Assembly: GCA_013151255.1 (NCBI GenBank)
Contig: JAADIQ010000043.1
Coordinates: forward strand, 1-48,513
Origin: Alphaproteobacteria bacterium
GTDB lineage: Bacteria > Pseudomonadota > Alphaproteobacteria > Caulobacterales > Parvularculaceae
Direction of reading: 5' to 3'
Length of the DNA stretch: 48,513 nt
The notes under the pieces are model-generated. The model was given only the letters and a program-made list of their open reading frames with translations. It was not told the origin of the DNA and made no database searches. The position numbers and the translations under genes are program-made. Shown here in pieces: positions 1-40,287 of this stretch (within the stretch, counting starts at the first letter, position 1; the number at the start of each line of letters is the position of its first letter).

Positions 1-647
1 TTTCCGGCATGGTTGAGGCGAATTTTGAGGCGATGCTGGCGGGCAGTTTTTTGCAACGGTTTCCGGCCTCTGTGGTGCTGTTTTCTGAATCTGACCTGAC
101 TGATTTTTTGCATATTCTGGTCGATGGCCAGGTTGAACTTTTCGCCAGCGCCAATAATCGCGAAGGCACAATGACGCTGATTAAGCCGGTTGCGACGTTT
201 GTGCTTGCCTCCGCGCTGGTCGACGGCGCCTATCAGATGTCGGCGCGCACTCTGGCGTCGTCGCAGATTTTGATGATACCGGCGGAAAATATTCGCGTCG
301 CCATGCTTGCAGATCGCGATTTTTCGCATAAAGCGGTGCTTGAGCTGGCGTCATGTTACCACGGCGTCGTGCGCGCCTATAAAAATATCAAGCTACGCAC
401 CGGTGTTGAGCGGCTGGCGAATTATCTCCTTGTCCAGCATCGCCGTCAGGGCGGCGACATCCTCACCTTGCCGGTCGAGAAAAGAACCCTGGCGTCAATG
501 CTCGGTATAACGCCTGAAAATCTTTCGCGCGCGTTTTCCACGCTCAAGCCCTACGGCGTTAAGGTTGATGGTCCAAAAATTGACCTTCAAAACATCAAAG
601 ACCTAGAGACGCTGGCCAAACCGTCGGTACTTATCGATACCCCTTAG
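1..647 (+). CDS. Crp/Fnr family transcriptional regulator, 5' end outside the window
   Basis: The product has a cyclic-nucleotide-binding jelly-roll domain (through about residue 110 of the visible part) and a C-terminal Crp-type winged helix with the recognition segment LASMLGITPENLSRAFSTLK. The first ATG is at 9, but the frame stays open to the window edge and the residues before it (S-G) continue the usual 'FSGM.EANF' N-terminus of this subfamily, so the ATG is probably internal and the gene partial. The FNR-type N-terminal cysteine cluster is not visible, so an oxygen-sensing iron-sulphur role is not supported; the ligand is unknown. The TAG stop (645-647) is also the first three bases of a TAGAGC repeat element. 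Family call is secure; the regulon cannot be inferred. Confidence 0.88.
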   Translation, partial: SGMVEANFEAMLAGSFLQRFPASVVLFSESDLTDFLHILVDGQVELFASANNREGTMTLIKPVATFVLASALVDGAYQMSARTLASSQILMIPAENIRVAMLADRDFSHKAVLELASCYHGVVRAYKNIKLRTGVERLANYLLVQHRRQGGDILTLPVEKRTLASMLGITPENLSRAFSTLKPYGVKVDGPKIDLQNIKDLETLAKPSVLIDTP

Positions 648-750
648 AGCATCGAGCAAAAAGTGTGCAACGGTTTTTGCGTCGCGCGATGCGACCAGAA
701 AAATCTATAGCAAAATCATTCGATTCAGAATTATTTTTGCTATAGTGATC
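645..750 (+). repeat. TAGAGC palindromic element, copy 1
   Basis: The element starts TAGAGCATCGAGCAAAAAG and ends just past a CTATAG at 740-745. Inside are nested inverted repeats: GCATCG with CGATGC, GCAAAAA with TTTTTGC, and CTATAGCAAAAT paired imperfectly with ATTTTTGCTATAG. The reverse complement of 12283-12390 is almost the same sequence over about 105 bp. I see two differences: two extra A in the AAAAA run here, and TTATTTTTGC here against TTATTGCATTTTGC there. The element begins exactly at the stop codon of the Crp/Fnr gene and fills the gap before the convergent efp gene. A role as a terminator or mRNA-end structure is inference. Confidence 0.8.
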
Positions 751-771
751 GTCGTCGCGGCGGGCCGCCGT

Positions 772-1335
772 TTACTCCGCGCGTTTTACATATTCCAGCG
801 TCGTCGTGTTGACGATGATTTTTTCACCGACGCTGATATAAGGCGGCACCAACACCCGCAGACCATTTTCAATAATCGCTGGCTTGAAAGAAGATGATGC
901 GGTCTGGCCTTTGACCGTAGGTTCGGTTTCGGTGATCGCAAGGGTTGCGTGTTCGGGCATCTGAACGCTGATTGCGCGACCTTCGTGGCTTTCGACAACG
1001 ACTTGCATGCCGTCTTGCAAAAATGCAACCCGCTCGCCGATCAGGTCCTTGGCGATATGGATTTGCTCATAGGTCTCGCCATCCATAAACACCAGGAGGT
1101 CGCCCTCGGCATAGAGATAGGTGTGATCTTTCTGCTCAAGGCGCACCCGCTCAACGGTTTCCGAAGAGCGGAAGCGTTCATTCAGCTTCGAGCCGTTGAT
1201 GAGATTTTTCAATTCAACCTGATTATAGGCCGGCCCCTTGCCGGGCTTTACCGCATGGGTTTTGACCGCCACCCACAAGCTGTCTTGATGCTGAACAATA
1301 TTGCCGGGCCGGATTTCGTTGCCGTTGATTTTCAT
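772..1335 (-). CDS. efp: elongation factor P
   Basis: EF-P binds between the P and E sites and relieves ribosome stalling at proline runs. The 187-residue product has the family's usual length and three-barrel layout: KOW-like N-terminus ([12 protein letters not shown]), central OB domain ([20 protein letters not shown]) and C-terminal OB domain ([29 protein letters not shown]). The loop KPGKGPA places Lys33 at the tip, the position modified by beta-lysylation through EpmA/EpmB in many proteobacteria; the modification genes are not in the window. It is convergent with the Crp/Fnr gene across a repeat element. Start ATG at 1335 fits the conserved N-terminus. Confidence 0.97.
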
Positions 1336-1407
1336 TATACGCCTTTGTGCTGTGGTGGCACGGCGCTTTAGCAGGACGGGCGCAAACTGACAAGGCGGGC
1401 GGGCGCG

Positions 1408-3635
1408 CTACAACCGAAACTTGTGGCCGAGGCGCAGCGCAAGGCTGGAGCCGAGGGAGGTGAAGTCGCGCGGAAAATTTTCCCGGTTGATCAGGGCCGT
1501 ATGGCCAAAAGAGAGAAATATCTCGCGCTCCGGCACAGGCTCCCATGTAAACCGACTAAAATAGGTGAAGCTCTGGGAAATATTATCATATTGAACTTCA
1601 GTTTTAATGGTCATGTCGGGCGTAAAAGCGATGGTTGAGTTGACCGACGCAATGTGAATAGAGACGTCGCCGGTCGGGAGCTCGAACTGTAGTAGATTGT
1701 AACTGGTCGAAAGTTCAAAATGTTTTGACGGCCGGAAATCTATATTTGTACGGAGTTCCAAAAGATCGCCATCATAAACGCCGCCCCATCTGACGTCGGC
1801 GCCAATGCCGAGCATCCGCGAGCGTGAGGTGCTAAGGTTGACCCTATAGCGATTCCATTGATAGTCGCCGGGGTTCACCGGAACCTCGCCGGCAATGTTG
1901 AATGGCTGGTTTATGCGCTCGACCCTGTGCTGGTACTGTACATTTACAGAATCGCCGGGATTGTTTTGTAGGAACACCCAGCCGCCTAAGAGCTCGTCCT
2001 GGCGTTGTCCGGATTGATCGGTGACAATGTTTCCAAAAGCCCCGGTTTCCGCATATCGCAACAGTTTTGTATTCGGGCGATAGGCGCGAAAAACTCTGCC
2101 ATCAAGTCGCTTGATGCCGGGGCGGTTGATAAAACCGAGCTTTGGAGCGTAATCCTCGCCGATGTCTCGCAAGCGCAGACGAGTGTTCCAGGTCTGGCTT
2201 CGGTAAGAGATATGGCCGGCCGTCATCGCGTCGTTGACGCCTTCGTCATAGCTGCGGATATGGGCAAAGTCCGCGGTTAGCGTTCCCTTGCCGAAAAGAT
2301 TAGATTTTTTATACTGAAAATCGACGCCGGCGACGGTGTTGTTGCTACCGCCCGTCGGGTCGCCATTGGTGAGAACAAAGCCAATTTTGGATTCCGATAA
2401 GATAGGAATAGATACGCGCGCCGAAGATAGATATTGCCCGTCAATGTTCGAGGCATCCGCAGCGCCAGTGCGCGTTGAAATCACGCCGACATTAGCGGGG
2501 CCGATCTTGCCGCTGAGTTTGGCGCCGGCGATGAGGTCAACCGGTCGGCCGCCAACAATGCCGATATTACGGGAGAAAAAAGGCAGTCCATTGGATGGGC
2601 CTCTTCTGAAAATATTCCCGCCAAATTCAAAAACCGCTGCATCCTGCAAAAAGAAATCCCGGGTTTCCGGGAAAAACAACGAGAAGCGACCGGTATTGAC
2701 CCGGCGCGTGTCCAGCGCCGTATTGGAGAAATCGGTGTTGAAGGTCAGCGAACCGGTGAGCGACGGCGTAATTTTATAAAAAACATTTCCGCTAGGGTTG
2801 AGCTCGACATCCGTTTCATCAAGCACCCAGTCACGCGATACGACACCGGTCGCGAAGGCCTGCACCTCAAGGCCGATGCCGTTATCGATGTCGCTAATGC
2901 CGGACACCCTGCCGGGATTGGTCATATCGATACGGTTTCGCGACTGGTCAATGTTGGACCAGCGGATTTCTTCATTATCGCGGCGGATTGTGCGGATGAT
3001 TTGCAGGTTCCATTCATCCAGCGCGGGGTCAAAGGAAATCGACTGAAACGGAATGGCAAATTCGGCGATCCAGCCATCCTCTACAACTTTGGCCTTGGCG
3101 CGCCAGATCGTATTCCATCGATCATTGAAGGCGCCATTATTTTCCGTGAGCGCATCGCTCCTTGCGCCATTTGGGTTGAGGCCAAAAAAGTAACTATCGC
3201 GGAAGCTGCCAAAACTATCGATTAATACCCTGATGCCGTCATCGTCCTGCAAGGCTGGGTCACGCTGCAATTGCGAGCGGCGTATCCGGTCGGGCTCTGT
3301 GTCATAGGCGTAAACGGCGACGTAAAGATTTTTGCTGTCATACATGATGTATGCGCGGGTCGGTTGCTGGGCGTGACGCCCTCGACCGGGTCGATCTGAT
3401 AGAACTCTTCAATGATCGCTGCATTGCGCCATGCGGGGTCGGACAAATCGCCATCGATCACCGGCGCGTCCTGCCGCGATATGCGCACCGCGGCAATCCG
3501 CGGCGTGTAATTGTCAAAATCGCGCGGCGCGGACGTAGCTGCGGGAGTGTTGGCGACTGTAGTCGGGCTTTGCTGCGCCGACGCCATCGCTGGCGCCAGT
3601 ATAGCCATTACACACGCCGACAACGAAACTCGCAT
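1408..3635 (-). pseudogene. DUF5916 / CBM9-like outer-membrane protein, one frameshift
   Basis: Two overlapping frames make one protein of about 742 residues. The upstream part (3635 to about 3367) has a signal peptide (MRVSLSACVMAILAPAMASAQQ) and the start of a CBM9-like domain ending IDGDLSDPAWRNA...YQIDPVEGVTPS. The downstream part (from about 3366 to 1408) continues QPTRAYIMYDSKNLYVAVYAYD and runs through the DUF5916 beta-strand-rich C-terminal region, ending SLALRLGHKFRL. The join needs one extra base: reading AGCCAA instead of AGCAA near 3366-3367 gives TPSQPTRAYIMYD, the expected family pattern. Either the gene is broken or the base is a sequencing error. Family members are predicted outer-membrane barrels of unknown substrate. 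The downstream part alone could start at ATG 3345 but would lack an export signal. Confidence 0.82.
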
Positions 3636-3953
3636 CTATTCCTGCTTAGTAAAATGCCGACGGACTGTATTTGCGGCGGCTTTAGATAGTGTTGCTGCTA
3701 CTTAATACACAGCCCCCAGAATCCGGTGAGGTTTTGTTCCGGATTTGCGGTGAACGGTTGGTTATTTCAGCTGAACCGTGCCCCCGACAAACCTGAATGG
3801 ACACAAACCTTTGTAAATATAGAGAAATTTCTGAAATTATCGGATTGCAGGGGAGGCCGGATTTCGTTGCCGCACAGGCTGCAATCAACAATGATTTAAC
3901 ACCGAGCCGCTATCGTTCCAGCGACGGGAATATCCTTCCCGAGGGGTGTGGTC
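3636..3953. other. divergent intergenic region, no gene seen
   Basis: This 318-bp gap lies between the divergent DUF5916 gene and the hybrid kinase gene, so promoters for both are expected here. A 69-codon minus-strand frame (3682-3891) has low-complexity composition, no recognisable domain and no good ribosome-binding site, and I do not call it. A GAGGGG ribosome-binding site sits at 3941-3946 before the kinase gene. I see no strong palindrome or repeat. Confidence 0.5.
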
Positions 3954-6215
3954 GTGAACGAACTTGCTGAGAAAAAGGACCGCGGCGGCGCCTATCAGGA
4001 AGACGATGGGATCGCCGCGTCTTTGAAGATTATCCTGACGACGCAGGCCTCTCGCTATCTCCACATTTCATCATGGGCGTTAATGTTGTTAACGATTGTC
4101 GATTTTACGACGGTCGTGATCTGGTATGTATTAACCATGACCGCCGGCATGGCCCGATCGCTTATCGAAAAGCGGATGCGCGACGGCCAGTCGCAGACAG
4201 CCGACCCTCACCATCGCAAATATGCATTCGTGGCGATGGGCTCATGCGCATTCTGGGCCGCGTCGCCGGTTATCGCCGTTCTATCCGGGCATCCTTTTGG
4301 TCTTGCGGCGGCGATGTTCTTGATCGTCAACGGCATCATGCTTGCGATTTCGCAATTTCGTTCGACCCCGACAAATGCGCTCATCGTTACATCGCCATAT
4401 ATTGTGGCCTATTCTGTATGCGTTGTTATTTTCTTCGGAACGAACATGTTCGTGCCGATGCTCGCCGCGGCGCCGCTTCTGATTGCGAGCATGTATTATG
4501 TTTTGATGTTTGGCTACATGTCGCAGCGACAGCTCAATCGCGCCGACCGCGAGCGCACCGCGCTGATTGAAGAGCTTGAAAGCGCACGGGTCGCGGCGGA
4601 AAAGGCGTCAGAGGCCAAATCCATGTTCCTCGCCAATATGAGCCATGAAATCCGCACCCCAATGAATGGCGTCTTAGGGATGGCCGAGCTTCTTGCCGCC
4701 ACCAAGCTCGACAGCCGTCAACAGGTTTTTGCCGATACGATACACAAATCTGGCGCGGCGCTCTTGACGATCATCAACGATATTCTTGATTTTTCAAAAA
4801 TCGAAGCCGGCAAGCTTGAGCTTGAAACTGTATCGTTTGATTTGCGCGCTTCGGTCGAAGATGTGGCCGCGCTTGTGGCCACGCGCGCCCAGGAAAAACA
4901 GATCGAACTTATTGTTCGTTGCCAGCCGGACCTGCCGGTCAATCTTCTGGGTGATGGCGGGCGCCTGCGTCAGGTGATCACCAATCTTGTCGGCAACGCG
5001 GTTAAGTTCACCGAGTCCGGCTATGTACTGATCAATGTTTCCGGCGATTATACGGAAGAGCAAGCGTCGATCCGCATCGAAGTCACCGACACCGGCATCG
5101 GCATTGACGCGGTTGTCGCCAGCCGGATTTTTGACCCGTTCCAGCAGGCGGATTCTTCGACCACGAGAAAATTTGGCGGCACCGGTCTTGGCCTGTCGAT
5201 TTCAAAGCGTCTGGTTGAAGCCATGGGCGGCAAGATCGGCGTGACCTCAAAGATTGGCGAGGGGTCGACCTTCTGGATCGAGCTTACCTTGCCAACGCGG
5301 GACGATGAGGAAATTGTCTGGCAGGCGACGTTCGAACCGGATGGCCAGCGCGTGCTGGTGGTCGATGATATCGACGTCAATCGTCAGATCGTCACCGAAC
5401 AACTCGCCGCCTGGGGATTTTCGTCAGATGCGGCGTCAAGCGGTGAAGAAGCGCTGATTATGATGCGCACGGCGGCGGTCAAGAACGAGCCTTATGCGAT
5501 CGCCATTCTCGATTTCTTTATGCCGGAAATGGATGGCGAGGAACTGGTCCAGCGGATCAAAAAAGACGCCGCTATTAGTAACGTGGCTTTGATTGTGCTG
5601 ACCTCGGTTGATCACAAAGGCGACGCCGGCCGTTTCCGTGAGCTTGGCGTTGACGGATACCTCGTGAAGCCTGCGCGCGCGGCGATGATTTTTGAAACCA
5701 TCGCCGGTATTTTGCAGACCAGCAACGCCGATATCAGCTTTGAAGAAGATGACGATGATATCAGTGTTGAATCAGGTGATGCGGATGAGCGCGTCAATGA
5801 AGCCGATAAGGTCAAAATTCTTCTTGCCGAAGACAATGAGGTGAACCAGCTCGTCGTCAAACATATGCTCGACGCCAATGTCTATGAACTGGTGATCGCC
5901 GATAACGGCCTTGAAGCTTTGCGTCTGTATGAAGCCGACCCGGGCGGGTTTGACATCATTTTGATGGATGTCTCGATGCCAGAGATGGACGGGCATGAGG
6001 CGACGCGGGCTATCCGCGCGCTGGAAAATGGCGCTCAGCGTACGCCGATGCCAATCGTTTGCCTTACCGCCCATGTGATGGCCGCCGATGTCGAGCGCAG
6101 CCGCGAGGCGGGCATGGACGATTATCTTTCCAAGCCCATAAGCAAAGAAAAACTCGACCAGGTGATTGAGCGTTGGACGGGTAAGGCTGAGGAACAAGCG
6201 CGTGTGCGCGCTTAA
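3954..6215 (+). CDS. membrane hybrid histidine kinase with two receiver domains
   Basis: An integral membrane sensor region comes first, with hydrophobic stretches at about residues 38-65, 90-135 and 140-190. It is followed by a short coiled segment ([23 protein letters not shown]), HisKA with [11 protein letters not shown] (phospho-acceptor His231 counting from 3954), and HATPase with the N box (NLVGNAVKF), DTGIGI and [14 protein letters not shown]. Two REC domains follow, with phospho-acceptor Asp520 ([10 protein letters not shown]) and Asp672 ([10 protein letters not shown]). There is no HPt domain, so onward transfer would need a separate protein, not seen here. I prefer the GTG at 3954 because GAGGGG at 3941-3946 is 7 nt upstream; an in-frame GTG at 3948 is too close. 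The stop overlaps the stop of convergent yebC. The sensed signal is unknown. Confidence 0.92.
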
Positions 6216-6958
6216 CCTGCGAGCCGTTCCATTTCTTCGTCGGAAATTTCAAAATTTGCATAGACGTTTTGAACGTCATCGCAATCATCAAGCGCGGTAA
6301 TCAGCTTGATCAGCGTCGCGGCTTTGTCGCCTTCAACGGCAATCGTATTTTGCGGCTTCCATACCGGTTTGGCCGATTGCGGTTCGCCGAAGCGTTTTTC
6401 CAGCGCCGCGGCAACCTCGGCAAGCTGATCAAACGCGCAATAGATTTCGTGCATGTCTTCAGACGAGACAACATCATCGGCGCCGGCCTCGATCGCCGCT
6501 TCAAGCATGTCGTCCTCTGAGCCCGCATCAGCGGCAAACTCAATATAGCCGACAAGGTCAAACATGAACGAGACCGAACCGGTCTCGCCGAGAGTGCCGC
6601 CGTTCTTGGAGAAGGTTGAGCGCACTTCGCTCGCCGCGCGGTTGCGGTTATCGGTCAACGCCTCGACGATGACGCCGACGCCGGCGGGGCCAAAACCTTC
6701 ATAGCGGATTTCTTCAAAACTGGCCTCGTCCGCCAAAGCCGACTTCTTGACCGCCCGTTCAATATTGTCCTTCGGCATCGACTGGCCTTTGGCGGCCTGA
6801 ATAGCCAGGCGCAAGCGCGGATTAAATTCCGGGTCCGGCGCGCCCATTTTGGCGGCGATGGTTATTTCCTTCGACAGCTTGGAGAACACTTTCGAACGCT
6901 TGGCGTCCTGGCGGCCCTTGCGGTGTTGTATATTCGCCCATTTACTGTGTCCGGCCAT
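6212..6958 (-). CDS. YebC/PmpR family DNA-binding or translation factor
   Basis: The 248-residue product begins with the family signature [20 protein letters not shown], which fixes the start at 6958 rather than at 6970 or 6961. Typical blocks follow: [49 protein letters not shown] and SVSFMFD. Members have been described as transcriptional regulators and, more recently, as factors helping ribosomes at proline-rich stretches; the sequence does not choose between these. In many alphaproteobacteria yebC follows ymdB; here a plus-strand group (7185-9995) separates them. The stop codon overlaps that of the convergent histidine kinase (6212-6215). Confidence 0.95.
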
Positions 6959-7184
6959 CATCACCCTCAAATTTTATCGGCCAGCGCAAAACCCGGCCAC
7001 GACGTTCTCTAATAGTCGCTTCACTGATCGCAAGAGCGCGTTTAGCGCGGACGAGCCGCGTGAGGCAAGGGCCGGGGTTTTGATAAATTCTGTCCGCCAC
7101 CGACAAATCTGCAAAGCCCGGCTGGCGTCAGCGGCGCGATTGGGGCATTTTCCTCATCAGATCGTATTCGGGGAGAGGGTGGTT

Positions 7185-11485: not shown

Positions 11486-11497
11486 AGAAAGAAAAAA

Positions 11498-11644
11498 CGC
11501 CGCCCCGGCCGTCGGACTTTTGTTCGCCCTGGACCCTAAGGTACAGGTGGGCGCCGCATAATTAGGACCAGGGTCCAGACCAGAGGCAGCTCCCGATAGA
11601 AGAAATAAGGCCCCGGGGAATGTTGTCCTAACGGGCCGGGCAGC
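11498..11644 (-). ncRNA. ssrS: 6S RNA (SsrS), regulator of sigma70 RNA polymerase
   Basis: No protein gene fits here, but the minus strand folds as a long hairpin. The ends pair as GCTGCCCGGCC with GGCCGGGGCGGC. Inside, TTAGGAC pairs with GTCCTAA, and CTGGACCCT with AGGGTCCAG (9 bp) gives an alternative inner helix. Sequence blocks such as CATTCCCCGGGGCC and CGGGAGCTGCCTCTGG resemble alphaproteobacterial 6S RNA as I remember it. The 3' end meets a run of six T (11492-11497, minus sense). It lies directly upstream of the 5-formyl-THF cyclo-ligase gene, the conserved 6S location. 6S RNA mimics an open promoter and sequesters housekeeping holoenzyme. Ends are estimated to within about 10 nt. Confidence 0.85.
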
Positions 11645-11650
11645 AGACGA

Positions 11651-12197: not shown

Positions 12198-12439
12198 TAG
12201 AGCGTGTTCACAAAAAGTGTAGGCGCGTTCGGTTCTTATCGAACCTCACTGGGTTCGAGTGAGGCGAGGAAGCGCCGAACGCGACCACTATAGCAAAATG
12301 CAATAATTCTGAATCGAATGATTTTGCTATAGATTTTTCTGGTCGCATCGCGCGACGCAAAAACCGTTGCACACTTTGCTCGATGCTCTAAAGAATCTAG
12401 ACTGCGTTCCCGATTCGACAAAAAGTGAACGCAGTCTAG
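12198..12439. repeat. composite TAGAGC palindromic element, copy 2 (two modules)
   Basis: Module 1 (12198-12390) starts TAGAGCGTGTTCAC and ends GATGCTCTA. It holds nested stems: CGCGTTCGG with CCGAACGCG, GTTCG with CGAAC, CCTCACT with AGTGAGG, CTATAGCAAAAT with ATTTTGCTATAG (12 bp perfect), and GTCGC with GCGAC. Its right half is the reverse complement of the 645-750 element. Module 2 (12397-12439) is a perfect 13-bp inverted repeat, CTAGACTGCGTTC and GAACGCAGTCTAG, with a 17-nt loop. The junction AAAGAATCTAGA (12390-12401) recurs at 40238-40249. The last CTAG contains the TAG stop of rsmD (12436-12438, minus). The upstream stretch 12001-12197 holds no gene I can support. Confidence 0.85.
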
Positions 12440-12999
12440 GGGGCGAACAGGTAAATGCCGATCTGCGCCGCGCCATAGGCCCGACGGTCAATCTCGCGAT
12501 AATGCGCCGCCTCTGCCGGGGCTTCGTCTTTTGCCTGCTCAACCACGACAAGCGCCTCCGGCGCGAGCCAGCCGCCAGCCGACAGTTCGCTCAGCGCCGG
12601 CGCGCTAAGGTTTTGTCGATAGGGCGGGTCGAGAAAGGCGAGGGTGAACGGCGCGCCGGCGCTTGCGGGGCGGGGGCCGAGCGCGGTTGCGGAGCGGCGG
12701 TGAATGCGGGTGTCGCCGAACAGGTCAAGCGTTTCAATCGTATCGCGGATGGCGCCGCGCGCGCCCGCATCAGTCTCCACAAACAAACACCACGCCGCAC
12801 CGCGCGACAATGCCTCAAAGCCGAGCCCGCCGGAACCGGCAAACAGGTCAATCACGCGCGCGCCCTCAAACGTAAAGCCGTCGCGAGCGCTCAAAATATT
12901 GAACAAAGCCTCGCGCGTACGGTCCGCCGTCGGCCGCGAGACCAACCCCTTTGGCGCGGCAATCCGCCTACCGCTGAATTTCCCGCCGATAATGCGCAT
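12436..12999 (-). CDS. rsmD: 16S rRNA (guanine(966)-N2)-methyltransferase
   Basis: The 187-residue Rossmann methyltransferase begins MRIIGGKFSGRRIAAPKG, typical of RsmD, with TRPTADR-like VSRPTADRTREALFNIL. SAM motif I is VIDLFAGSGGLGFEALSRGA and catalytic motif IV is FLDPPY. It modifies G966 of 16S rRNA during 30S assembly. The ATG overlaps the stop of the upstream DUF4169 gene (ATGA, 12997-13001), so translation is probably coupled. The TAG stop is supplied by the end of the palindromic element at 12397-12439. Confidence 0.95.
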   Translation of the reverse strand: MRIIGGKFSGRRIAAPKGLVSRPTADRTREALFNILSARDGFTFEGARVIDLFAGSGGLGFEALSRGAAWCLFVETDAGARGAIRDTIETLDLFGDTRIHRRSATALGPRPASAGAPFTLAFLDPPYRQNLSAPALSELSAGGWLAPEALVVVEQAKDEAPAEAAHYREIDRRAYGAAQIGIYLFAP

Positions 13000-19571: not shown

Positions 19572-19945
19572 ATTTCAAAACCTTTAAAACCTATTGCCTG
19601 TCGAAGCCCGGCGTGACGGAGGCTTATCCGATGAAGGGGGAGGTCGTCTGGATGAAGGTGAGCGGCAAGATGTTCGCGATGACGAATGTTAAACCACTGA
19701 AAATGGATGGCGAGATGGTCTCGCCATATCATTTCATCAACTTGAAATGCGACCCCGAACGCGCGCTCGCCTTGCGGAAAAAACACTCCGCCATCAAGCC
19801 AGGCTGGCACCAAAATAAAACTCACTGGAACACGCTGCTGATGGGAAAATCCACGCCCGACGCCTTGGTCAAAGAGCTGACCGATCATTCCTACAATCTG
19901 GTCGTGGCGTCGTTACCAAAAAAGCAAAGAGAAGGGCTAAAATGA
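19568..19945 (+). CDS. MmcQ/YjbR family protein
   Basis: A 125-residue product with the CyaY-like MmcQ/YjbR fold signature: FKTYCLSKPGVTEAYPMKGEVVWMKVSGKMFAMTN near the start, then INLKCDPERALALRKKHSAIKPGWHQNKTHWNTLL and LTDHSYNLVVASLPKK at the end. The family is annotated as DNA-binding from structure, but its function is not settled. It starts with GTG overlapping the GFA gene stop, and its stop overlaps the next ATG (ATGA), so the three genes form a coupled operon. Confidence 0.9.
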   Translation: MNFKTFKTYCLSKPGVTEAYPMKGEVVWMKVSGKMFAMTNVKPLKMDGEMVSPYHFINLKCDPERALALRKKHSAIKPGWHQNKTHWNTLLMGKSTPDALVKELTDHSYNLVVASLPKKQREGLK

Positions 19946-20391
19946 TGACCAGCAGTAAACCAAAACCAGGAATGCAGTATTACGTATTGGCGATCCTGGC
20001 CTTTGTGATTGCGTCCTTCGCTGTTCAGGCGACGTCACATTTTGTCCTGAACGCCGACCACTATGCGGCGGTTGGATTTATGCGCAATGAGCCGATTATG
20101 GCGCTCGGGATTTTCACGATGATCGTCCAAGGGGCGATATTGGCGTATCTCTACACATTTTTTTATCGAGACGGCGCGCCGCTCCTGCGGGGGTTGAAAT
20201 ATGGATTGTTGATGGGGGTGTTTTTAGGGAGCTACCTGACATTGGTGGAGCCTGCGAAATACATTGTCCCGTCTATCCGCGGCTGGATGATTGTCGAGGG
20301 ATTGGCCAGCCTGGTGCAGTTCAGCCTTTACGGTATTCTCGTCGGGCTGATCTATGATAGAGCGTGTTCACAAAAAGTGAACGCAGTCTAG
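19942..20391 (+). CDS. multi-pass membrane protein ending inside a repeat
   Basis: A 149-residue protein with four hydrophobic segments: YYVLAILAFVIASFAVQATSHF, IMALGIFTMIVQGAILAYLY, LKYGLLMGVFLGSYLTLVEPAKYIV and MIVEGLASLVQFSLYGILVGLIY. I do not recognise a named family. After LIYD the last codons (RACSQKVNAV and the TAG stop) are wholly encoded by the 33-bp palindromic element at 20359-20391, so the natural C-terminus was probably replaced when the element arrived; a TAG would occur at 20358-20360 in another frame. It is the last gene of the GFA-MmcQ operon. Confidence 0.7.
   Translation: MMTSSKPKPGMQYYVLAILAFVIASFAVQATSHFVLNADHYAAVGFMRNEPIMALGIFTMIVQGAILAYLYTFFYRDGAPLLRGLKYGLLMGVFLGSYLTLVEPAKYIVPSIRGWMIVEGLASLVQFSLYGILVGLIYDRACSQKVNAV
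20358..20391 (+). repeat. TAGAGC palindromic element, minimal copy 3
   Basis: Reads TAGAGCGTGTTCAC, AAAAA, GTGAACGCAGTCTAG. The centre is a perfect GTTCAC/GTGAAC hairpin and the outer arms are imperfectly complementary. The first 22 bases equal those at 12198-12219 and the last 22 equal those at 12418-12439. It encodes the last ten residues and stop codon of the membrane protein gene. Confidence 0.8.
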
Positions 20392-32156: not shown

Positions 32157-32216
32157 TCGGTTGGCCACGGGTCAGTTGGCCATCTGTCGGTTGGCCATCT
32201 GTCGGTTGGGAAGGCC
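32157..32216. repeat. 15-bp tandem repeat in the rpoH leader
   Basis: Four units of 15 bp: TCGGTTGGCCACGGG, TCAGTTGGCCATCTG, TCGGTTGGCCATCTG and the diverged TCGGTTGGGAAGGCC. They lie 41-100 nt upstream of the rpoH ATG on its 5' side. Units carry the TTGGCCA palindrome-like core. Copy number could vary between strains. Confidence 0.75.
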
Positions 32217-32788: not shown

Positions 32789-32813
32789 TCCCTGGAGGCA
32801 AGGTTTTTAACAA

Positions 32814-32872
32814 TAGTATCAATTTTCGTACTACGTACCAAAAAACTGCCTTCTTGCGTAAAGATACTACCC
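32814..32872. promoter_or_regulatory. candidate HxlR operator region
   Basis: In the 130-bp divergent gap, TAGTA (32814) and TACTA (32829) form an inverted pair, CGTAC-TA-CGTAC (32827-32838) is a direct repeat, and GATACTACC follows at 32863. Such TACTA/GTAC-rich clusters suit an HxlR-type dimer site. No experiment supports it here. Confidence 0.3.
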
Positions 32873-32918
32873 CGCTAGGCTTTGGGCAACTTCAAACACC
32901 AACCCATGGCGGAACTTC

Positions 32919-33593
32919 ATGACATTAACTGTACACACCATTAGCGGTGCGCCGAGGGGGTGGCGGGTATTGTTGGGCTTGGCCTTCAAAGGCTTGCGCT
33001 GGGACGTCAATTATCTGCAAGCCTCCAGGCAGGACCATAAATCGCCAGAGTTTTTAAAGTTGAACCCGCGCGGAACCGTGCCGGTTCTTGAGGCGAACGG
33101 CGTTGTCATCAGCGATTCTATCGGTTGCCTCGCCTGGCTTGACCGGGCTTATCGCGAGCAGCCGTTGTTTGGCGAAACGCCGGACGAGGCGGCGCGGATC
33201 TGGCAGTTGACCATGCAGGCGTGCGATTATTTGCGCGACGCCAATCATGAATTGCTCTCAAGGGTTTTTTCGGAAAATCCGCCATCACCGGGGGCTGCCG
33301 ACTATGACGCGTTAAAAAATGGCGCCGATGCGATGCATGCGGAATGTGCATGGCTTGAAAACCAATTGGCGAACGGATCGTTTCTAGCTGGCGCCCGTCC
33401 GGGTGCGGCGGATGCGGTGGCGTATCCGGAAATTTGCCTCGTAGAGCGCGGCGTTGAAACCAAGCCAGAAATTATGGCGTCGCTTGGTTTTGAGGAACCC
33501 TCGTCACGATACCCCCGACTGGAAGCCTGGAAGGCGGCTGTTTCTGCGTTGCCGGGCGTCAACAATACTTTGCCGCCGCATTGGGCGGCGTGA
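32919..33593 (+). CDS. glutathione S-transferase family protein
   Basis: A 224-residue protein with a thioredoxin-like N-terminal domain (TLTVHTISGAPRGWRVLLGLAFKGLRWDVNYL; cis-Pro in GTVPVLEANG; ISDSIGCLAWLD in place of the ESxxI glutathione site) and an all-helical C-terminal domain. It likely conjugates or reduces electrophiles with glutathione. ATG 32919 is divergent from the HxlR gene, which probably controls it. Note that gshA is also in this window, at 46365. Confidence 0.92.
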   Translation: MTLTVHTISGAPRGWRVLLGLAFKGLRWDVNYLQASRQDHKSPEFLKLNPRGTVPVLEANGVVISDSIGCLAWLDRAYREQPLFGETPDEAARIWQLTMQACDYLRDANHELLSRVFSENPPSPGAADYDALKNGADAMHAECAWLENQLANGSFLAGARPGAADAVAYPEICLVERGVETKPEIMASLGFEEPSSRYPRLEAWKAAVSALPGVNNTLPPHWAA

Positions 33594-33621
33594 AATCAAT
33601 CTCACAGGAGAGGAAACAATA

Positions 33622-34395
33622 ATGAAAAACCGACCTAACACCCAATGCAGCCGCTTTGCGGCCCTGTTGCTGGTTTCGACGGTCGCCATGGCGGGCGCTT
33701 CCCATGCGGAGGACATGACGCCGCTGCCGCAGGCATTGGAAATCGAACTGGCGCTCAGCGCCTTACCGGAACATTTGCAGGACGAAGCGGCGATTTATGT
33801 CCTCAACCCATCGCGCGGATACGAAATCCATCGCCAGGGAAGCAACGGTTTTGCGACGTTTGTCGCGCGAGCCAGCACCCGCTTTGTCGCCGCCGATTGG
33901 GACTATGACTATCCGGCGGACCAACTCATCCCGCTCGCATTCGACAATGTTGGCGTTAGCGAGCACATGCAGACATATTTTGATATCGCGCAAATGCGCG
34001 CGACAGGCGTTGCGCCGGCAAAAGCAAAAGCCAGGCTGCGCGCAAGCTTTGAAGACGGAACCTACAAGGCGCCGGATAAAGGCGGCATTTCTTACATGCT
34101 GGCGCCAATCCACCGGGCCTATATGGCGGCGGAAACGTCGGGCGCGCTCATGACTGTCAGCATGCCGCATTTAATGCCCTATGCGCCATACATATCCGGC
34201 GGCCAGATCGGCAATGACAATCCGATGAATGGCTTGCCTTATGCGCTCAATCATGGCGGCGAAGACACCGGCCCGCATGGCTATATGGTGATCATGACGC
34301 CTACGCCGCAAGCCGACCGCCTGCGCGAGAAATACGCCGCCCTGATGGCGCAGCTCTGCACGCTCAATACCAATTGGTGTGTCGCAGACGAGTAA
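33622..34395 (+). CDS. exported conserved protein of unknown function
   Basis: A 257-residue product with a signal peptide (FAALLLVSTVAMAGASHA, cleavage after AxA). The mature part contains LEIELALSALPEHLQDEAAIYVLNPSRGYEIHRQGSNGF, IPLAFDNVG, GGISYMLAPIHRAYM, MTVSMPHLMPYAPYISGGQIG and a final LCTLNTNWC. I recognise the general look of periplasmic proteins found in many proteobacteria but not a named family. The start ATG has a strong AGGAGAGG site at 33606-33613; a frame opening at 33454 inside the GST gene is a shadow. It lies 28 nt after the GST stop and may share its transcript. Confidence 0.85.
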   Translation: MKNRPNTQCSRFAALLLVSTVAMAGASHAEDMTPLPQALEIELALSALPEHLQDEAAIYVLNPSRGYEIHRQGSNGFATFVARASTRFVAADWDYDYPADQLIPLAFDNVGVSEHMQTYFDIAQMRATGVAPAKAKARLRASFEDGTYKAPDKGGISYMLAPIHRAYMAAETSGALMTVSMPHLMPYAPYISGGQIGNDNPMNGLPYALNHGGEDTGPHGYMVIMTPTPQADRLREKYAALMAQLCTLNTNWCVADE

Positions 34396-34421
34396 CGCTA
34401 GATCTGAGACGCTTCAGCCCT

Positions 34422-36050
34422 TCACTTCGCCTGCATCGCCGACGCGATTTCCTCGCGGGCTTCGGCGTCTTTTAAATATTGCGGCTCGGCGCGGTGGTGG
34501 GTTTTTTGCTCATAAGCATAGCCATAAGAAAGCACCATCGCGTCGGTATCTTTTGCGCCAATGAACGAAAACCCGACCGGCACGCCGTGAACGGTTCCCA
34601 TGGGGACGGTTAAATGCGGATAGCCGGCAATTGCCGCAAGCCCGCCGGCGCCGGCCCAGTCCGGCCAGATGTCGCCATTGATCGGGTCGATGCGCGGCGC
34701 GACCGGGCCGGATGGCGCCACCAGGATATCGACCTGATTTTGGGCGAGCAGCGCATCAATGCCGTTCTCACGGCTGGCGGACTGAATACGCGTGAGCGCG
34801 GCGATATAGTCGGGATCCTCCAGACCGGCCTTGGCCTCGGATTCGACAAAAATACTCTGGTCGAACAGCGCCAGCTCGATATCGGCGTTGGCTTCATTAA
34901 ACGCGATCAACTGTTCCAGCGTTCTCGTGGTCACGGCCGGCGCGGCGTCGGCGAGATAGTCATTGATGGTGGCTTTGAATTCAAATTCTAAAACCGCGTA
35001 AGCGTCGTTCCAATATTGCTCGTTCTGCTGATCGAATTCCGTAATCTCTACGAGGATCGCGCCCGCCGCCTCCAGATCCGCCAGCGCGGAGTTGAAATGG
35101 GTAATGATGGCGGTGTTGGAGCCTTGCGCATAACGCAAAACGCCAATGCGGGCGCCGCTCAGCGCGTCTGCATCAAGCGCTGCCACATAGTCGGTCTTCG
35201 CCGCGCCCGAGGCCATGGCGTTCAGCATCATCGCCGCGCCCGTAACGGTTTTAGTCATCGGCCCGGCAGTATCCTGCGACGATGAAATCGGCACGATATA
35301 TTGCTGTGGGACAAGGCCGACAGTCGGCTTAAAGCCGACAACGCCGTTGACATTGGACGGGCAGATGACTGAGCCGTTGGTTTCGGTGCCGACGCCGCCA
35401 GCGGCGAGCGAAGCGGCGATGGCGGCCCCCGTGCCAGAGCTTGACCCGCACGGATTGCGATCCAGCATATGCGGGTTGCGGACCTGACCGCCAAGCGCCG
35501 ACCAGCCGCTCATGGAATTGTTGGAGCGAAAGTTCGCCCACTGACTAAGATTGGTTTTGCCGAGAATAATCGCGCCCGCCTCACGCAGGCCCGCTGCGAG
35601 CGGGGAGTCGCGGCCCGTGATATTGTCTTTCAACGCCAGCGCTCCGGCGGTGGTGGCGATATTGTCTTTGGTCTCAATATTGTCCTTAAGCAGAACGGGA
35701 ATGCCGTGGAGGGCCCCGAGCACCTCGCCGGCGGCGCGTTTTGCGTCAAGCGCACGGGCCTCTTCCAGCGCATCGGGGTTAAGCGCGAGAATGCTTTGCA
35801 AGGTTGGCCCCGCCCGGTCGATCTCATCAATGCGTTTCAGATAATCTCCGACCAACGCCTCGGATGTGACCTCGCCTGATTGCAACGCGGCGGCGATTTC
35901 CGGCAGCGGTTTTGCGAGCAAACCATGCGGCGTGTAATCTGCGGCTTGAGCTTGCGGCTCATCGGCGCGGTCCTCCGCCGGTGAGCAGGCGAGCAGGGCG
36001 AGGGCGGGTAGCGTAAGTGCGAAAAATTTAAAACCGATCCGGCGGTGCAT
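34422..36050 (-). CDS. lipoprotein amidase (amidase signature family)
   Basis: A 542-residue protein. The N-terminus FFALTLPALALLAC is a lipobox signal with the acylated Cys22. The amidase signature triad is visible: Lys122 in PVLLKDNIE, cis-Ser203 in GSSSGTGAA and nucleophile Ser227 in GTETNGSVICPS. It resembles periplasmic amidases annotated as AtzF/GatA-like, and would hydrolyse an amide in the periplasm. It is convergent with the exported protein gene at 33622. Substrate unknown. Confidence 0.94.
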   Translation of the reverse strand: MHRRIGFKFFALTLPALALLACSPAEDRADEPQAQAADYTPHGLLAKPLPEIAAALQSGEVTSEALVGDYLKRIDEIDRAGPTLQSILALNPDALEEARALDAKRAAGEVLGALHGIPVLLKDNIETKDNIATTAGALALKDNITGRDSPLAAGLREAGAIILGKTNLSQWANFRSNNSMSGWSALGGQVRNPHMLDRNPCGSSSGTGAAIAASLAAGGVGTETNGSVICPSNVNGVVGFKPTVGLVPQQYIVPISSSQDTAGPMTKTVTGAAMMLNAMASGAAKTDYVAALDADALSGARIGVLRYAQGSNTAIITHFNSALADLEAAGAILVEITEFDQQNEQYWNDAYAVLEFEFKATINDYLADAAPAVTTRTLEQLIAFNEANADIELALFDQSIFVESEAKAGLEDPDYIAALTRIQSASRENGIDALLAQNQVDILVAPSGPVAPRIDPINGDIWPDWAGAGGLAAIAGYPHLTVPMGTVHGVPVGFSFIGAKDTDAMVLSYGYAYEQKTHHRAEPQYLKDAEAREEIASAMQAK

Positions 36051-36131
36051 GGCAATCCCCTTATTGTTACAAGTGAGCCTAGCGGCCCTGACGCGCCGAT
36101 GAAAGCGCCTCGGCGTTTCTTTTTTGCTCTG

Positions 36132-37199
36132 TTAAAGCGCCGCGAAGGCGCTGCGCAGCTGTTGAAAATCTTCCGGCGCCTCGACTTCAAAGCGTAAGCT
36201 CTCGCCGGTTATCGGGTGCGTAAAGCCCAGCAGTTTTGCATGCAACGCCTGGCGGCGGAATTTGGCGAGAATGGCAATCGCATGATCGGCGGCGTCATCG
36301 ATGGGTCGGAGCCCGGCAAGGCCGGGGCGGCGGCCATAGAGCGGATCGCCGATCAGCGGGTGGCCAATATGGGCTAGATGCACGCGGATTTGGTGGGTGC
36401 GCCCGGTCTCAAGCTGACATTCGATTAGCGAGGCAAGCGCGTCGCCTTTCAGCTTGGCGCGCCCGCGGCCATAACTTTCGGTGAGCTTATAATGGGTGAC
36501 GGCATGGCGCGGATTAAAATGCGTGCGCTCATCGACCACCGCCATTTTTTTACGGTCATGCAGCGCGCGGGCCAGCGCCGCGTCGATGGTTCCGGCGCCA
36601 GGGCGCGGCGCCCCGAACGTAATCGCCTGATAGAGCCGATTTATTTCGTGTACGGAAAAAGCCGCCGTCAGGCTCTGATGCGCGGCGTCATTCTTGGCGA
36701 CGACTAGCAATCCGGACGTGTCCTTGTCGATGCGGTGGACAATCCCCGGCCGCGCCACGCCGCCAATGCCGGACAGGCTGTCGCCGCAATGATAGATCAG
36801 CGCGTTGACCAGTGTCCCGGACCAGTTGCCGGCGGCGGGGTGGACCACCAGCCCCGCCGGTTTGTTAACGACGATGAGGTCGGCGTCTTCAAAGACCACG
36901 TCGAGCGGGATGTCCTCGCCCTCTGGCTCCGGATCGGCGACCGTCGGCACGGCCAGGAGGTAGCGCTCGCCTTCGCGCAGCTTTGACGACGGATCGGTGA
37001 TGACGGCGCCGTCGCGGGTCAGCGCCCCGGCCTCAATCAGCGCCTTAATGCGCGTGCGGGTGATGGGTTCGATACATTCTGACAACCATTTATCAAGCCT
37101 TGCACCGGCATGATCGGCCTCAACAAGGCAAGAATAGACCGCTTCACCGGTATCGGACACGGTGTTTTCGGGGTTGAGGGCTGCGTCATCGCTTGTCAT
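36132..37199 (-). CDS. RluA/RluD-family 23S rRNA pseudouridine synthase
   Basis: A 355-residue protein with an S4 domain (ARLDKWLSECIEPITRTRIKALIEAGALTRDG), then the catalytic motif HRIDKDTSGLLVVAKN (nucleophile Asp) and the RluD-type GRTHQIRVHLAHIGHPLIGDPLYGRRP. The likely targets are positions 1911, 1915 and 1917 of 23S rRNA if it is RluD. I choose ATG 37199 (MTSDDAALNPENT); the frame stays open to 37634, but that extension is antisense to the DUF6476 gene. It is divergent from DUF6476, a pairing common in alphaproteobacteria. Confidence 0.93.
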   Translation of the reverse strand: MTSDDAALNPENTVSDTGEAVYSCLVEADHAGARLDKWLSECIEPITRTRIKALIEAGALTRDGAVITDPSSKLREGERYLLAVPTVADPEPEGEDIPLDVVFEDADLIVVNKPAGLVVHPAAGNWSGTLVNALIYHCGDSLSGIGGVARPGIVHRIDKDTSGLLVVAKNDAAHQSLTAAFSVHEINRLYQAITFGAPRPGAGTIDAALARALHDRKKMAVVDERTHFNPRHAVTHYKLTESYGRGRAKLKGDALASLIECQLETGRTHQIRVHLAHIGHPLIGDPLYGRRPGLAGLRPIDDAADHAIAILAKFRRQALHAKLLGFTHPITGESLRFEVEAPEDFQQLRSAFAAL

Positions 37200-37251
37200 A
37201 AGCAGGCTGTAGCCGCGCCAACGGCAAATGTCGATTAGGGAGTTGCAAGAC

Positions 37252-37728
37252 GTGAAACTGGGAATGGCTGACAAGGCCCGCGCTGAGAAAGACACCCTCG
37301 ATTTTACCGAGGCGCCGCCGAGCGCCGGCGGCGTGGGGGCAATGATCGGCACAAAGAACCTTCTGATCGCGATTGTCACCATGCCGTTTGTGTTTCTGAT
37401 CGTGGTGATGACGATTATCAGCATCTTCGGCAGCCCGGATAAGGACCGCAGCGCGAAAGCCCCGGCTGCAAATTCAGCGCCGGCGAGCGTTGCGCTGGAC
37501 CAACCGGCGCTTACCGGCCAACAGGCGGTCGCGCCGATAGAGGCATCCTTGCCGGCATCGGCGGCGATTGTCATTCCCAAAGGCGCCAGCGCCGGCGCGA
37601 TGTCGCTAGACGGCGACCGCCTTGCGGTGCGCATTGACGGTGAGAGCGGGTCGATGATTGTGATCTATGACCTCGCCAAGGGCGAGCCTGTGCAGATCAT
37701 TCCGCTCACGGCTGAGGCGACAAACTAA
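37252..37728 (+). CDS. DUF6476 family single-pass membrane protein
   Basis: About 158 residues: a polar N-terminus, one transmembrane helix (NLLIAIVTMPFVFLIVVMTIISIFG), an Ala/Pro-rich linker, and a C-terminal beta-rich stretch AAIVIPKGASAGAMSLDGDRLAVRIDGESGSMIVIYDLAKGEPVQIIPL, matching DUF6476. I choose GTG 37252 because AGGGAG lies 9 nt upstream; the ATG at 37228 is also in frame. It stands divergently next to an rluD-like gene. Function unknown. Confidence 0.75.
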   Translation: MKLGMADKARAEKDTLDFTEAPPSAGGVGAMIGTKNLLIAIVTMPFVFLIVVMTIISIFGSPDKDRSAKAPAANSAPASVALDQPALTGQQAVAPIEASLPASAAIVIPKGASAGAMSLDGDRLAVRIDGESGSMIVIYDLAKGEPVQIIPLTAEATN

Positions 37729-37877
37729 CGCCAGATAAAGCGCGCCAAGCGTTTTCCGGGTTTCACAAATAGTGCGCGCGCCTGTGCGCCCGGTCACAGC
37801 CTGATCGCATAGGCAGGGCTACGGTTTGTCCAACACACAGCCAAGGCCCGTCTATAGGGCCAGCTCATTGGAGAGAT

Positions 37878-38810
37878 ATGATGGCCCGTCGCGCAGCAAA
37901 ACTTTCGATCGCTCTGGCTCTCGCCCTTGCCGCCGTTAATGGCGCGCCGGCGCTCGCCCAATCTGACGGCGCTGCTTCTGGCGACGCGCTGCAAGACGCC
38001 CGTCAGGCCATGCCAAAATATGGCGGACGCGGAGACGGCTACGGTCGCTACGATTTTCGGCTTAGGGCGCGTTATGATTATGGTCTCGACGGATCAACGT
38101 CGTCGAAGGCGGCGGAAGGCGCGATGAAGAAGGCGGCAGCCCACAAACACACCGCAGCTTGCCGACATTCCTGGCATGGCTTGTCGCCCGGCGTTGCAGC
38201 CAGCGGCGGCATAATCACAGAGGGACGACCGCCCAAGAAAAAATACGCCCACGCCAAGCCTGGCGCGACACGCACCGCGCCGAACAATAGTGGCGAGAAA
38301 AAACCGCCTGCAAACAAAAGCACCCCGCCAAAAAAACCTGCGCCGTCCGGCGAGAAAATGACGCAAGTTCCGCAACCGCCGGTTATTTTAACGGGCAAGA
38401 AAGGCGCGCGCGGTCGCCTTGATATAAGCCCTGACCCGAAAGGCGTCGATTACGAGACGGCTGGCGCCAAAGGCGGGTTTTCTGAAGCTGCCGGGCTGGA
38501 GTTAGAAGTCCAGCCGATCGAATATCGCGACGGAATCAGCAGCGAATATCATAAAACCAAGCAGCCGGGCCTGCCGAAATATACCAATATTCACATCTCG
38601 CCGCTGCCGCATAATGATGGGTTTGCAAAGGAACTCCTGCGCGAGGCACGCTTCCAGGTTGAGCTTGAAGACCTCAAAACCAGGCATTTTCCAGAACGCC
38701 AGCGCCAGTCCGCTCAACCTCGCTCGGACGCCGCGCTGAGCGGCGCCTTGAAATACGCCAAAAGTACTTTATATTTTAAAGTGAAATTGCTGGAGGCGAG
38801 CTATGAGTGA
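37878..38810 (+). CDS. exported protein with a phage tail-tube (gp19)-like segment
   Basis: A 310-residue product with a signal peptide (LSIALALALAAVNGAPALAQ), a Lys/Pro/Ala-rich linker (about 118-180) and residues 200-240, GFSEAAGLELEVQPIEYRDG then KQPGLPKYTNIHISP. The last segment resembles the start of T4 gp19/contractile tail-tube proteins (FSEVSGLE.E...EYREGG....KLPG..KY.NI). A tail-tube fold on an exported, linker-bearing protein is unexpected. No sheath, baseplate or spike genes flank it. It could instead be an unrelated protein with convergent motifs. The stop overlaps the start of the next gene, so it leads a three-gene operon with the membrane protein and regulator. Confidence 0.6.
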   Translation: MMARRAAKLSIALALALAAVNGAPALAQSDGAASGDALQDARQAMPKYGGRGDGYGRYDFRLRARYDYGLDGSTSSKAAEGAMKKAAAHKHTAACRHSWHGLSPGVAASGGIITEGRPPKKKYAHAKPGATRTAPNNSGEKKPPANKSTPPKKPAPSGEKMTQVPQPPVILTGKKGARGRLDISPDPKGVDYETAGAKGGFSEAAGLELEVQPIEYRDGISSEYHKTKQPGLPKYTNIHISPLPHNDGFAKELLREARFQVELEDLKTRHFPERQRQSAQPRSDAALSGALKYAKSTLYFKVKLLEASYE

Positions 38811-39468
38811 GGCTAAGGACAACAAAGATGGCGGCCATGGCGATGCGGATTTGGCAAGCGAGCTTGCTTATGTGCGCTCGCTTGCCGAAGAGGGCCGTAA
38901 TGCGCCGCTTGTCGGCGGACGGTTTTTTCTGATCTGGGGCGCGGTGATCGGTTTTACAGCGTTGTTCATTTATGTCGACTATGCCAGCGCCATCAATCTC
39001 GGCCTCGCGGATTCTTTTGCACCATGGCTTGTTGCTATTGCGGCGGGTTGGGTCTTGTCATTCACGGTCGGCAGGCGCGCCGGCGCCAAACCTGGCGCGC
39101 TCACCATCGGCAACCAGACGGCAAGCTCGGTATGGTTCGCGGTCGGCATATTCATGACCTTGTTCTGGTTCACGCTGATGGTGGTTCACGATAATTATAC
39201 CGATGCCGGCATGGCGCCTTACTTTCTTTTCTCGCTGATGTTCCCGGTAGCATTTGGGCTATATGGCGTTGCATTTTTTGCAACCGCGACAGCGGCCCGT
39301 CTTGGCTGGCTGCGATACTTTTCCTACCTGTCTTGGGGCGTTGCCATTGTCTCGCTGTTCCTGCTCAATAGCCCGCAACAATTGCTTGTCGGCGGGCTTG
39401 GATCTTTGGCTTGCGCAGCGCTGCCAGGGTTGATTTTAATGCGCCGCGAACCGAGTGAAATAATATAG
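38803..39468 (+). CDS. six-helix membrane protein of unknown function
   Basis: A 221-residue protein with a charged N-terminal tail, then six hydrophobic segments (FFLIWGAVIGFTALFIYV; WLVAIAAGWVLSFTVG; SVWFAVGIFMTLFWFTLMVV; YFLFSLMFPVAFGLYGVAFFA; YFSYLSWGVAIVSLFLL; LLVGGLGSLACAALPGLILM). It overlaps the upstream exported-protein gene by 8 nt and is followed by a winged-helix regulator 3 nt downstream. Pairs of such a membrane protein with a small MarR/ArsR-like regulator are common in alphaproteobacteria; the role is unknown. Confidence 0.8.
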   Translation: MSEAKDNKDGGHGDADLASELAYVRSLAEEGRNAPLVGGRFFLIWGAVIGFTALFIYVDYASAINLGLADSFAPWLVAIAAGWVLSFTVGRRAGAKPGALTIGNQTASSVWFAVGIFMTLFWFTLMVVHDNYTDAGMAPYFLFSLMFPVAFGLYGVAFFATATAARLGWLRYFSYLSWGVAIVSLFLLNSPQQLLVGGLGSLACAALPGLILMRREPSEII

Positions 39469-39471
39469 GCC

Positions 39472-39789
39472 ATGCCGTCTCAACCCGACTTTGATTATCG
39501 TGAAATTGACGACGTCATTCATGGCCGCGCGCGGTTGGCGATCATGGCGTTTTTGTCGGGGGCGGGCGCTGCGGACTTTAATGAGTTGAAGGCGCGCATT
39601 GGCGGCACCGATGGCAATATGTCGGTGCATATCCGTAAGCTGGAAGAGGCAGGTTACATCCGTGTGGAGAAGAAATTTTCCGGGCGCCGGCCGTTGACGA
39701 TTTGCCATCTGACAAAAACCGGCCGCGAGGCCTGGATCGCTTATATTGCAAGAATGGAAGCTTTGATGCGCCCGAACGCGGCGGAGTAA
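39472..39789 (+). CDS. winged-helix transcriptional regulator (ArsR/MarR-like)
   Basis: A 105-residue protein consisting almost wholly of a winged helix: DVIHGRARLAIMAFLSGAGAADFNELKARIGGTDGNMSVHIRKLEEAGYIRVEKKFSGRRPLTICHLTKTGREAWIAYIARMEAL. It matches the PF13601-type regulator often paired with a membrane protein. It is the last gene of the 37878-39789 group and is convergent, without spacing, with DUF6460. Confidence 0.9.
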   Translation: MPSQPDFDYREIDDVIHGRARLAIMAFLSGAGAADFNELKARIGGTDGNMSVHIRKLEEAGYIRVEKKFSGRRPLTICHLTKTGREAWIAYIARMEALMRPNAAE

Positions 39790-40098
39790 TTATCGGCGCT
39801 GTTTTCGGGAAGACAAAAGCCGCGCAATCAGCCATATAGGAACGACAATGGCGGCGCCGATAAATAAATACGCCCCAAGCGTTCCTAAAACCTCCGTGAC
39901 ATTCTCGCCAAGCGAAAGAACGAGGCCTTTGGCGGTGTGAAATATCCCGCGCCAGAATTCTTGCGGCGACAGGCCGACAAACGAAAAAGCCGCGCCGACA
40001 ACGATGCTGAAGATGACAAGCCGGAGGACAGTGCGCCGCGCGCTTTTGCCGATGATACGCGGTTTGATGTCACGCGATTTGATGTCGTTGTCTGCCAT
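39790..40098 (-). CDS. DUF6460 small membrane protein
   Basis: A 102-residue protein with two membrane segments: VLRLVIFSIVVGAAFSFVGLSPQEFWRG and LGAYLFIGAAIVVPIWLIARLL, with the intervening helix HTAKGLVLSLGENVTEVL, as in DUF6460. I choose ATG 40098 (MADNDIKSRD). An upstream start at 40125 would add nine residues. Function unknown. The TAA stop abuts the convergent regulator's stop (39787-39792). Confidence 0.8.
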   Translation of the reverse strand: MADNDIKSRDIKPRIIGKSARRTVLRLVIFSIVVGAAFSFVGLSPQEFWRGIFHTAKGLVLSLGENVTEVLGTLGAYLFIGAAIVVPIWLIARLLSSRKQRR

Positions 40099-40165
40099 GA
40101 CCGGCCCTTCCTTGCGTGCAGACAATAGCGTTGTGTGAAGGGTCGATCAATAGGCCGGCGTCAAG

Positions 40166-40287
40166 CTAGAGCATTTCCGGATAAGTGTGACGCGTTGAAA
40201 GCTATTCGCTTTCAACTCCGATAGAAATGCGGCAAACAAAGAATCTAGAGCAAATCCATGATTCAAGTTAACTCGGATTTGCTCTAG
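40166..40287. repeat. two-module TAGAGC palindromic element, copy 4
   Basis: Module 1 (40166-40230) opens CTAGAGCATTTCC, with GCATTTC pairing to GAAATGC and an inner perfect hairpin GTTGAAAGC-TATTC-GCTTTCAAC (40194-40216). Module 2 (40245-40287) is CTAGAGCAAATCC and GGATTTGCTCTAG, perfect 13-bp arms around a 17-nt loop. The junction AAAGAATCTAGA (40238-40249) is the same as at 12390-12401. The final CTAG contains the stop codon of the gene at 40284. Confidence 0.85.

Follow-up and report, generated by a model that had tools for sequence, protein, structure and literature searches.

Four palindromic elements in a 48,513-nt contig of a Parvularculaceae genome (Alphaproteobacteria bacterium, GCA_013151255.1, contig JAADIQ010000043.1; this whole stretch is the window below) were noted as coinciding with the stop codons of neighbouring genes. 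Why should a repeat sit so precisely at gene ends? The first-pass annotation had suggested that insertion is aimed at TAG/CTAG, that stop-proximal sites are selected or that the elements act as stop-coupled terminators, and had described the elements as providing the stop codons. We consider it very probable that each is a copy of a non-autonomous mobile element of the CIR/Bru-RS type, which is targeted to (Y)TAG, is silent at stops and survives there. The coincidence itself is real, general and largely explained. The following features were recognized in the window:

645..745, plus strand: C-type copy, whose left TAG (645-647) terminates the gene at 9-647 (+)
6212..6215, no strand: empty site TTAA, within which the convergent genes 3948-6215 (+) and 6212-6970 (-) both have their stop
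12198..12439, plus strand: A-type copy; its right-end CTAG (12436-12439) contains the stop of the minus-strand rsmD
12288..12390, minus strand: C-type copy nested in the A-type copy, placed after a TAG that belongs to the A-type sequence (by comparison with intact A copies)
20358..20391, plus strand: 34-bp A-type remnant; the gene at 19942-20391 traverses it to the far TAG
40167..40287, plus strand: B-type copy; the minus-strand gene 40284-40811 stops within its right-end CTAG (40284-40287)
44065..44168, minus strand: degenerate D-type copy, overlooked in the first pass and not exactly at a stop

Sequence searches and alignment confirmed that all four noted elements belong to one repeat family, with two corrections: the first copy ends at 745, not 750, and 12198-12439 is two elements, one nested in the other. 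The four open reading frames also end where first described, 9-647 (+) with TAG at 645-647, 12436-12999 (-) at 12436-12438, 19942-20391 (+) at 20389-20391 and 40284-40811 (-) at 40284-40286. The claim that four of four lie at stops holds in part. Three copies are exact, and the 20391 gene is a read-through, crossing the left TAG out of frame (GAT AGA) and terminating at the far one; the overlooked copy at 44065-44168 is off-stop, 39 nt from the nearest called stop. The 34-bp remnant apparently goes back to a deletion between the CAAAAAGTG words common to both hairpins of A-type copies.

The window also holds a 6S RNA match at 11493-11649 on the minus strand (64.9 bits, above the gathering score), its sole Rfam match, and at 32157-32209 a 23-nt unit (TCGGTTGGCCA...) present three times, overlapping, in 15-nt steps. 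Over the whole window CTAG is under-represented: it occurs 38 times, whereas 100 shuffles gave a mean of 64 and never fewer than 38.

In the genome of the window we counted 68 copies with a recognized left end, 59 of them with both ends. The census started from 69 hand-listed left ends, of which C28:7063 was dropped; nine of the remaining copies had no recognized right end, and three matches to the right hairpin only (C15:26251, C49:256 and C80:3279) were left out. It is incomplete, since a profile search of 811 kb yielded at least three further degenerate copies. Copies are ~100 bp long with two hairpins, and those with both ends are mostly 101–126 bp. An alignment of 46 copies gave a bipartite plan, which starts with TAGAGC and a left hairpin having AAGTG...CGGTT as its core, continues through a linker (e.g., AACAAAGAAT) that ends in AAAGAAT, and closes with a right hairpin standing on CTAG feet. 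The right hairpin had covariation in eight of nine predicted pairs and was the only one recovered by RNAalifold, because the left-hairpin subtypes differ too much; both hairpins appeared in individual folds. No Rfam match was found for the elements. Several D-type copies (G000:C36:5416, C63:4723, C92:13596 and C102:25943) carry extra repeats, CCGCGAAGGCGGTC...GCGCGCCTTCGCGCG and CTTCGACAAGCTCAGGATGAGG, within their left half, so the elements are mosaics. At C113, tandem copies have one TAG in common.

D-type copies were found in 22 of 60 relatives searched, the genome of the window being one of the 22; within the genome of the window itself, a query holding only 22 bases of the D element was enough to find D copies. 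In other genomes the pattern TAGAGC-N8..13-AAGTGGANACCGGTT, which requires TAGAGC, recovered at least 122 copies in at least 120 stretches. Among the 80 stretch titles listed (of at least 120) were Caulobacter, Bradyrhizobium, Methylobacterium and Rhizobium, and we take the organisms in all 80 to be Alphaproteobacteria. A GANTC motif lay in the loop in 41 of the 59 both-ended copies of our genome and anywhere in the copy in 53, the density being 13.1 per kb in copies vs 0.72 outside. The enrichment was weaker in the other genomes (5.7 vs 1.5 per kb among the matches listed), and GANTC was missing from four of seven printed copies, two of the four from Caulobacter.

To what extent do these copies coincide with stops? 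With genes called by a simple codon-usage script, 22 of the 68 copies in our genome lie exactly at a gene stop, which is the TAG within either TAGAGC on the left or CTAG on the right. A same-strand stop coincides with the left TAG in nine copies and an opposite-strand stop with the right CTAG in 16, three copies having both; another 22 called stops lie 1–70 nt outside an end. The genome-wide count comes out above the YTAG background given below. Held against the refuting condition named in the first pass, that copies be located mostly away from stops, a majority (46 of 68) is indeed elsewhere than exactly at a stop; the four-in-four statistic came from a small sample and was rejected. Among the matches listed from other genomes, 59 of 122 copies are exactly at a stop. 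Here same-strand stops fall at offset 0 in 45 cases and at other positions of the range scanned in 16 (including one inside the element), and opposite-strand stops at offset 1 in 15 cases and elsewhere in six. As a right end was recognized in no more than 38 of the 122 copies, the opposite-strand coincidences are undercounted.

The simplest alternative is chance, with insertion anywhere and genes that run into an element halting at the first in-frame stop. Run-in should use the three frames equally, whereas in our genome 25 stops fall on the two exact positions vs two elsewhere inside elements, and in the other genomes 60 vs one (among the matches listed). It accounts for the 20391 gene and perhaps for C31:9609. 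For the family as a whole we rejected random insertion with frame run-in, on the exact positions and on C-termini that are the same as in orthologues at empty sites, and regard it as barely conceivable.

These orthologues come from G006, the closest relative found, which is largely colinear with the window. Of 16 at-stop genes compared, 15 end at the same codon in G006, where 12 of the 15 sites are without the element; in this orthologue comparison, of the kind proposed in the first pass, the ends of these 15 genes are unchanged. At the 645 site G006 has no element and reads ...LIDPQ TAG, against ...LIDTP with TAG here; rsmD ends ...YLFTP TAA there and ...YLFAP with TAG here; and the 40284 gene ends ...DAMRA TAG there and ...DAMKA with TAG here, in each case without the element in G006 and at the same codon. 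The 44065-44168 copy is missing from G006, and for the 20391 gene no orthologue was found at the corresponding place. The empty 645 site of G006 itself reads TAGAGC, and loss of an older copy there is therefore possible.

For the 19 other at-stop copies of our genome we searched one gene end each in G006; 13 were found and six were not. Twelve of the 13 stop at the same position, the exception being C120, which stops two codons later in G006. Nine of these 12 sites are empty in G006. Of the other three, C102:17423 holds the same element, C36 a different copy that lies at the same stop but points the opposite way, and C59 a different copy situated 6 nt downstream. The cleanest pair is C47:33499, CTCC-TAG-GCAAA without and CTCC-TAG-AGC...GTC-TAG-GCAAA with the element. 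The C36 case (G000:C36 near 5416 vs G006:C24 near 2697) involves different copies at one stop codon in two species and looks like two independent insertions. In a reciprocal case G006 has an element at the stops that lie at 6212-6215 in the window; there the last residues of the two proteins are unchanged, and each gene ends in a TAG at its own end of the element.

The junctions define the target more closely. A pyrimidine precedes the left TAG in 55 of 68 copies of our genome (C in 32, T in 23), and in 111 of 122 copies from other genomes among the matches listed. We conclude that the preferred target is YTAG, with insertion directly behind it. Of the 59 both-ended copies, 41 have TAG as their left triplet, a figure favoured by the search, as left ends were mostly found via TAGAGC-like motifs; among 47 copies found with a separate profile that ignores this triplet, only 26 have TAG, with TAT, TAC, TGG and others also occurring, and the target is therefore a preference. 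Together with the empty sites and the reciprocal and nested insertions, the pyrimidine before the left TAG strongly supports the earlier suggestion of insertion targeting at TAG/CTAG.

The right end reads NTAG in 54 of the 59 copies and CTAA in one. Its TAG is probably carried by the element rather than made as a 3-bp duplication, although such a duplication is possible for most copies. At C107:19591 both the left end and the empty site in G006 read CAG by eye, and the right end TAG. Here the same-strand gene, the one compared by script, ends 4 nt before the element, and the opposite-strand gene ends R-D-L-N in both genomes, with TAG here and TGA in G006 (by eye). Among 12 opposite-strand genes compared, C102 and C36 are not at empty sites and C120 differs; at the nine empty sites, reading the left flank backwards predicts the G006 stop in seven (by eye; chance p = 0.019).

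The junctions also bear on what moves the element. A single-strand transposase similar to IS200/IS605 or RAYT, with YTAG as its left cleavage site, would agree with the asymmetric ends, where the left triplet is host-like and outside the hairpin and the right TAG is at the hairpin foot, and with the lack of a clear duplication at C107:19591. Movement of the IS200/IS605 type has a lagging-strand preference. Such a preference would give a strand bias, and none was seen with GC skew as a proxy: orientation agreed with the local skew in 26 of 57 copies, and in 23 of 50 at strong skew, which disfavours this route. Y1_Tnp matches were present in nine of 40 genomes searched, and G006 has one match; we found none in the 92%-complete assembly of our own genome and recognized no element beside 11 Y1_Tnp loci. 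We think a single-strand route unlikely.

A double-strand transposase that makes a short duplication, either of TAG (3 bp) or of TA at YTAR, would agree with TAG standing at each end of the element but a single time in empty sites, with the two orientations at one stop (C36) and with the missing strand bias. IS711 makes such a duplication, of the TA within YTAR, and has been linked to Bru-RS repeats (PMC2266754). The TA version is disfavoured because the two ends are not mirror images, the left flank being a mixture of C and T whereas the base after the right TA is nearly always G; the TAG version is at odds with the CAG and TAG ends of C107:19591. In addition, no DUF4096 transposase match was found in our 92%-complete assembly. 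We regard this route as possible, if somewhat improbable.

Whichever enzyme is involved, the explanation we prefer is a non-autonomous element of the CIR/Bru-RS type that would be moved in trans. It would insert directly 3' of a host (Y)TAG and have (C/A)TAG as its right end, which would put a TAG at each of the two junctions. Where the target is the amber stop of a gene, that gene would retain its stop as the left-end TAG. For a gene entering from the right, the old stop would be left on the far side, and the right-end CTAG, in the same frame, would end the protein at the same codon. The idea that the elements provide stop codons would thus apply to genes entering from the right end, while those entering the left end keep their original TAG. 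With TAG restored at both ends, insertions at stops would be silent for both neighbours and would persist, whereas those within genes would be purged. The coincidence with stops would then arise from target preference plus survival.

Survival would enter where targeting falls short of the numbers. Against a background of all YTAG sites that lie in noncoding DNA or serve as stops, the share of stops is 49 of 372 (13%) in one sample of our genome, 162 of 1065 (15%) in an 811-kb sample, and 178 of 817 (22%) in the other genomes; the excess at elements has p = 4e-5, p = 3e-4 and, among the matches listed, p = 9e-11, respectively. This roughly two-fold excess is beyond the reach of targeting alone. 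It persists in our genome when only convergent and unidirectional regions are considered (20 of 52 copies vs 49 of 249 sites). Selection for stop-proximal sites, as proposed in the first pass, is supported as a second layer, and may have produced the excess.

The same excess, together with strong hairpins (z of -3.7 to -8.7 in six pieces), could point to a different kind of selection, in which at-stop copies are retained as stop-coupled terminators or stabilizers of mRNA 3' ends. This would be compatible with insertion at TAG. However, of the 63 copies in our genome that are flanked by called genes on either side, 11 have divergent neighbours, 46 of all 68 do not coincide exactly with a stop, and the purging of promoter insertions would yield an equal excess; we consider a terminator or stabilizer role rather unlikely.

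More broadly, and tentatively, with a likelihood that we place a little short of even, the elements may represent a wide alphaproteobacterial repeat superfamily that uses amber stops as a safe harbour. Its ends would return a stop to both strands, the target TAG on the left and a surrogate CTAG on the right, and the mover would be an as yet undescribed transposase with an asymmetric YTAG target. If true, this would answer how CIR-type repeats insert. The insertions described here show how a mobile element can enter the very end of a gene and leave the protein untouched, even at a stop common to two convergent genes. For annotation it means that some TAG stops in such genomes are the ends of mobile elements, and the missing transposase becomes searchable via its target.

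How do these elements compare with repeats already described? RIME of Rhizobium, attributed to Osteras in 1995, are reportedly palindromic intergenic elements of similar size. The Bru-RS of Brucella (Halling and Bricker 1994), a stem-loop repeat of 103–105 bp, are alike as intergenic stem-loop repeats of similar size in an alphaproteobacterium, by description alone (PMC2267715). IS711, associated with Bru-RS, is an 842-bp coding insertion sequence whose YTAR target resembles the present site and which duplicates TA (PMC2266754); our elements have asymmetric ends and depart from a symmetric YTAR with TA duplication. GTAG REPs are also palindromic and mostly intergenic, and their ends often supply a TAG stop to flanking ORFs; they are 20–40 bp long with a GTAG tag, and the section on them contains no empty-site evidence (PMC3733652). 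Our elements depart from this group in being ~100 bp, mostly 101–126 bp, and bipartite, with G before the TAG in only five of 68 copies rather than a GTAG hairpin foot.

By description, the closest resemblance is to the Caulobacter CcrM-associated intergenic repeats (CIR; Chen and Shapiro 2003), which are ~110 bp long, consist of a pair of inverted repeats with a linker between them, carry a conserved GANTC in one hairpin loop and have TA at their termini (PMC2229807). The present elements share the length, the two linked inverted repeats, the loop GANTC in the copies of our genome, the TA termini and alphaproteobacterial hosts. No report on the insertion site of CIR-type repeats was found in the literature searched, which excluded most subscription papers. 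The passage on CIR in a 2007 review gives the target duplication as "?" and leaves mobility unresolved, and insertion at stop codons is not described there (PMC2229807). Our results supply an insertion site for this repeat class; the kind of repeat is known, and the property of its insertion site is new.
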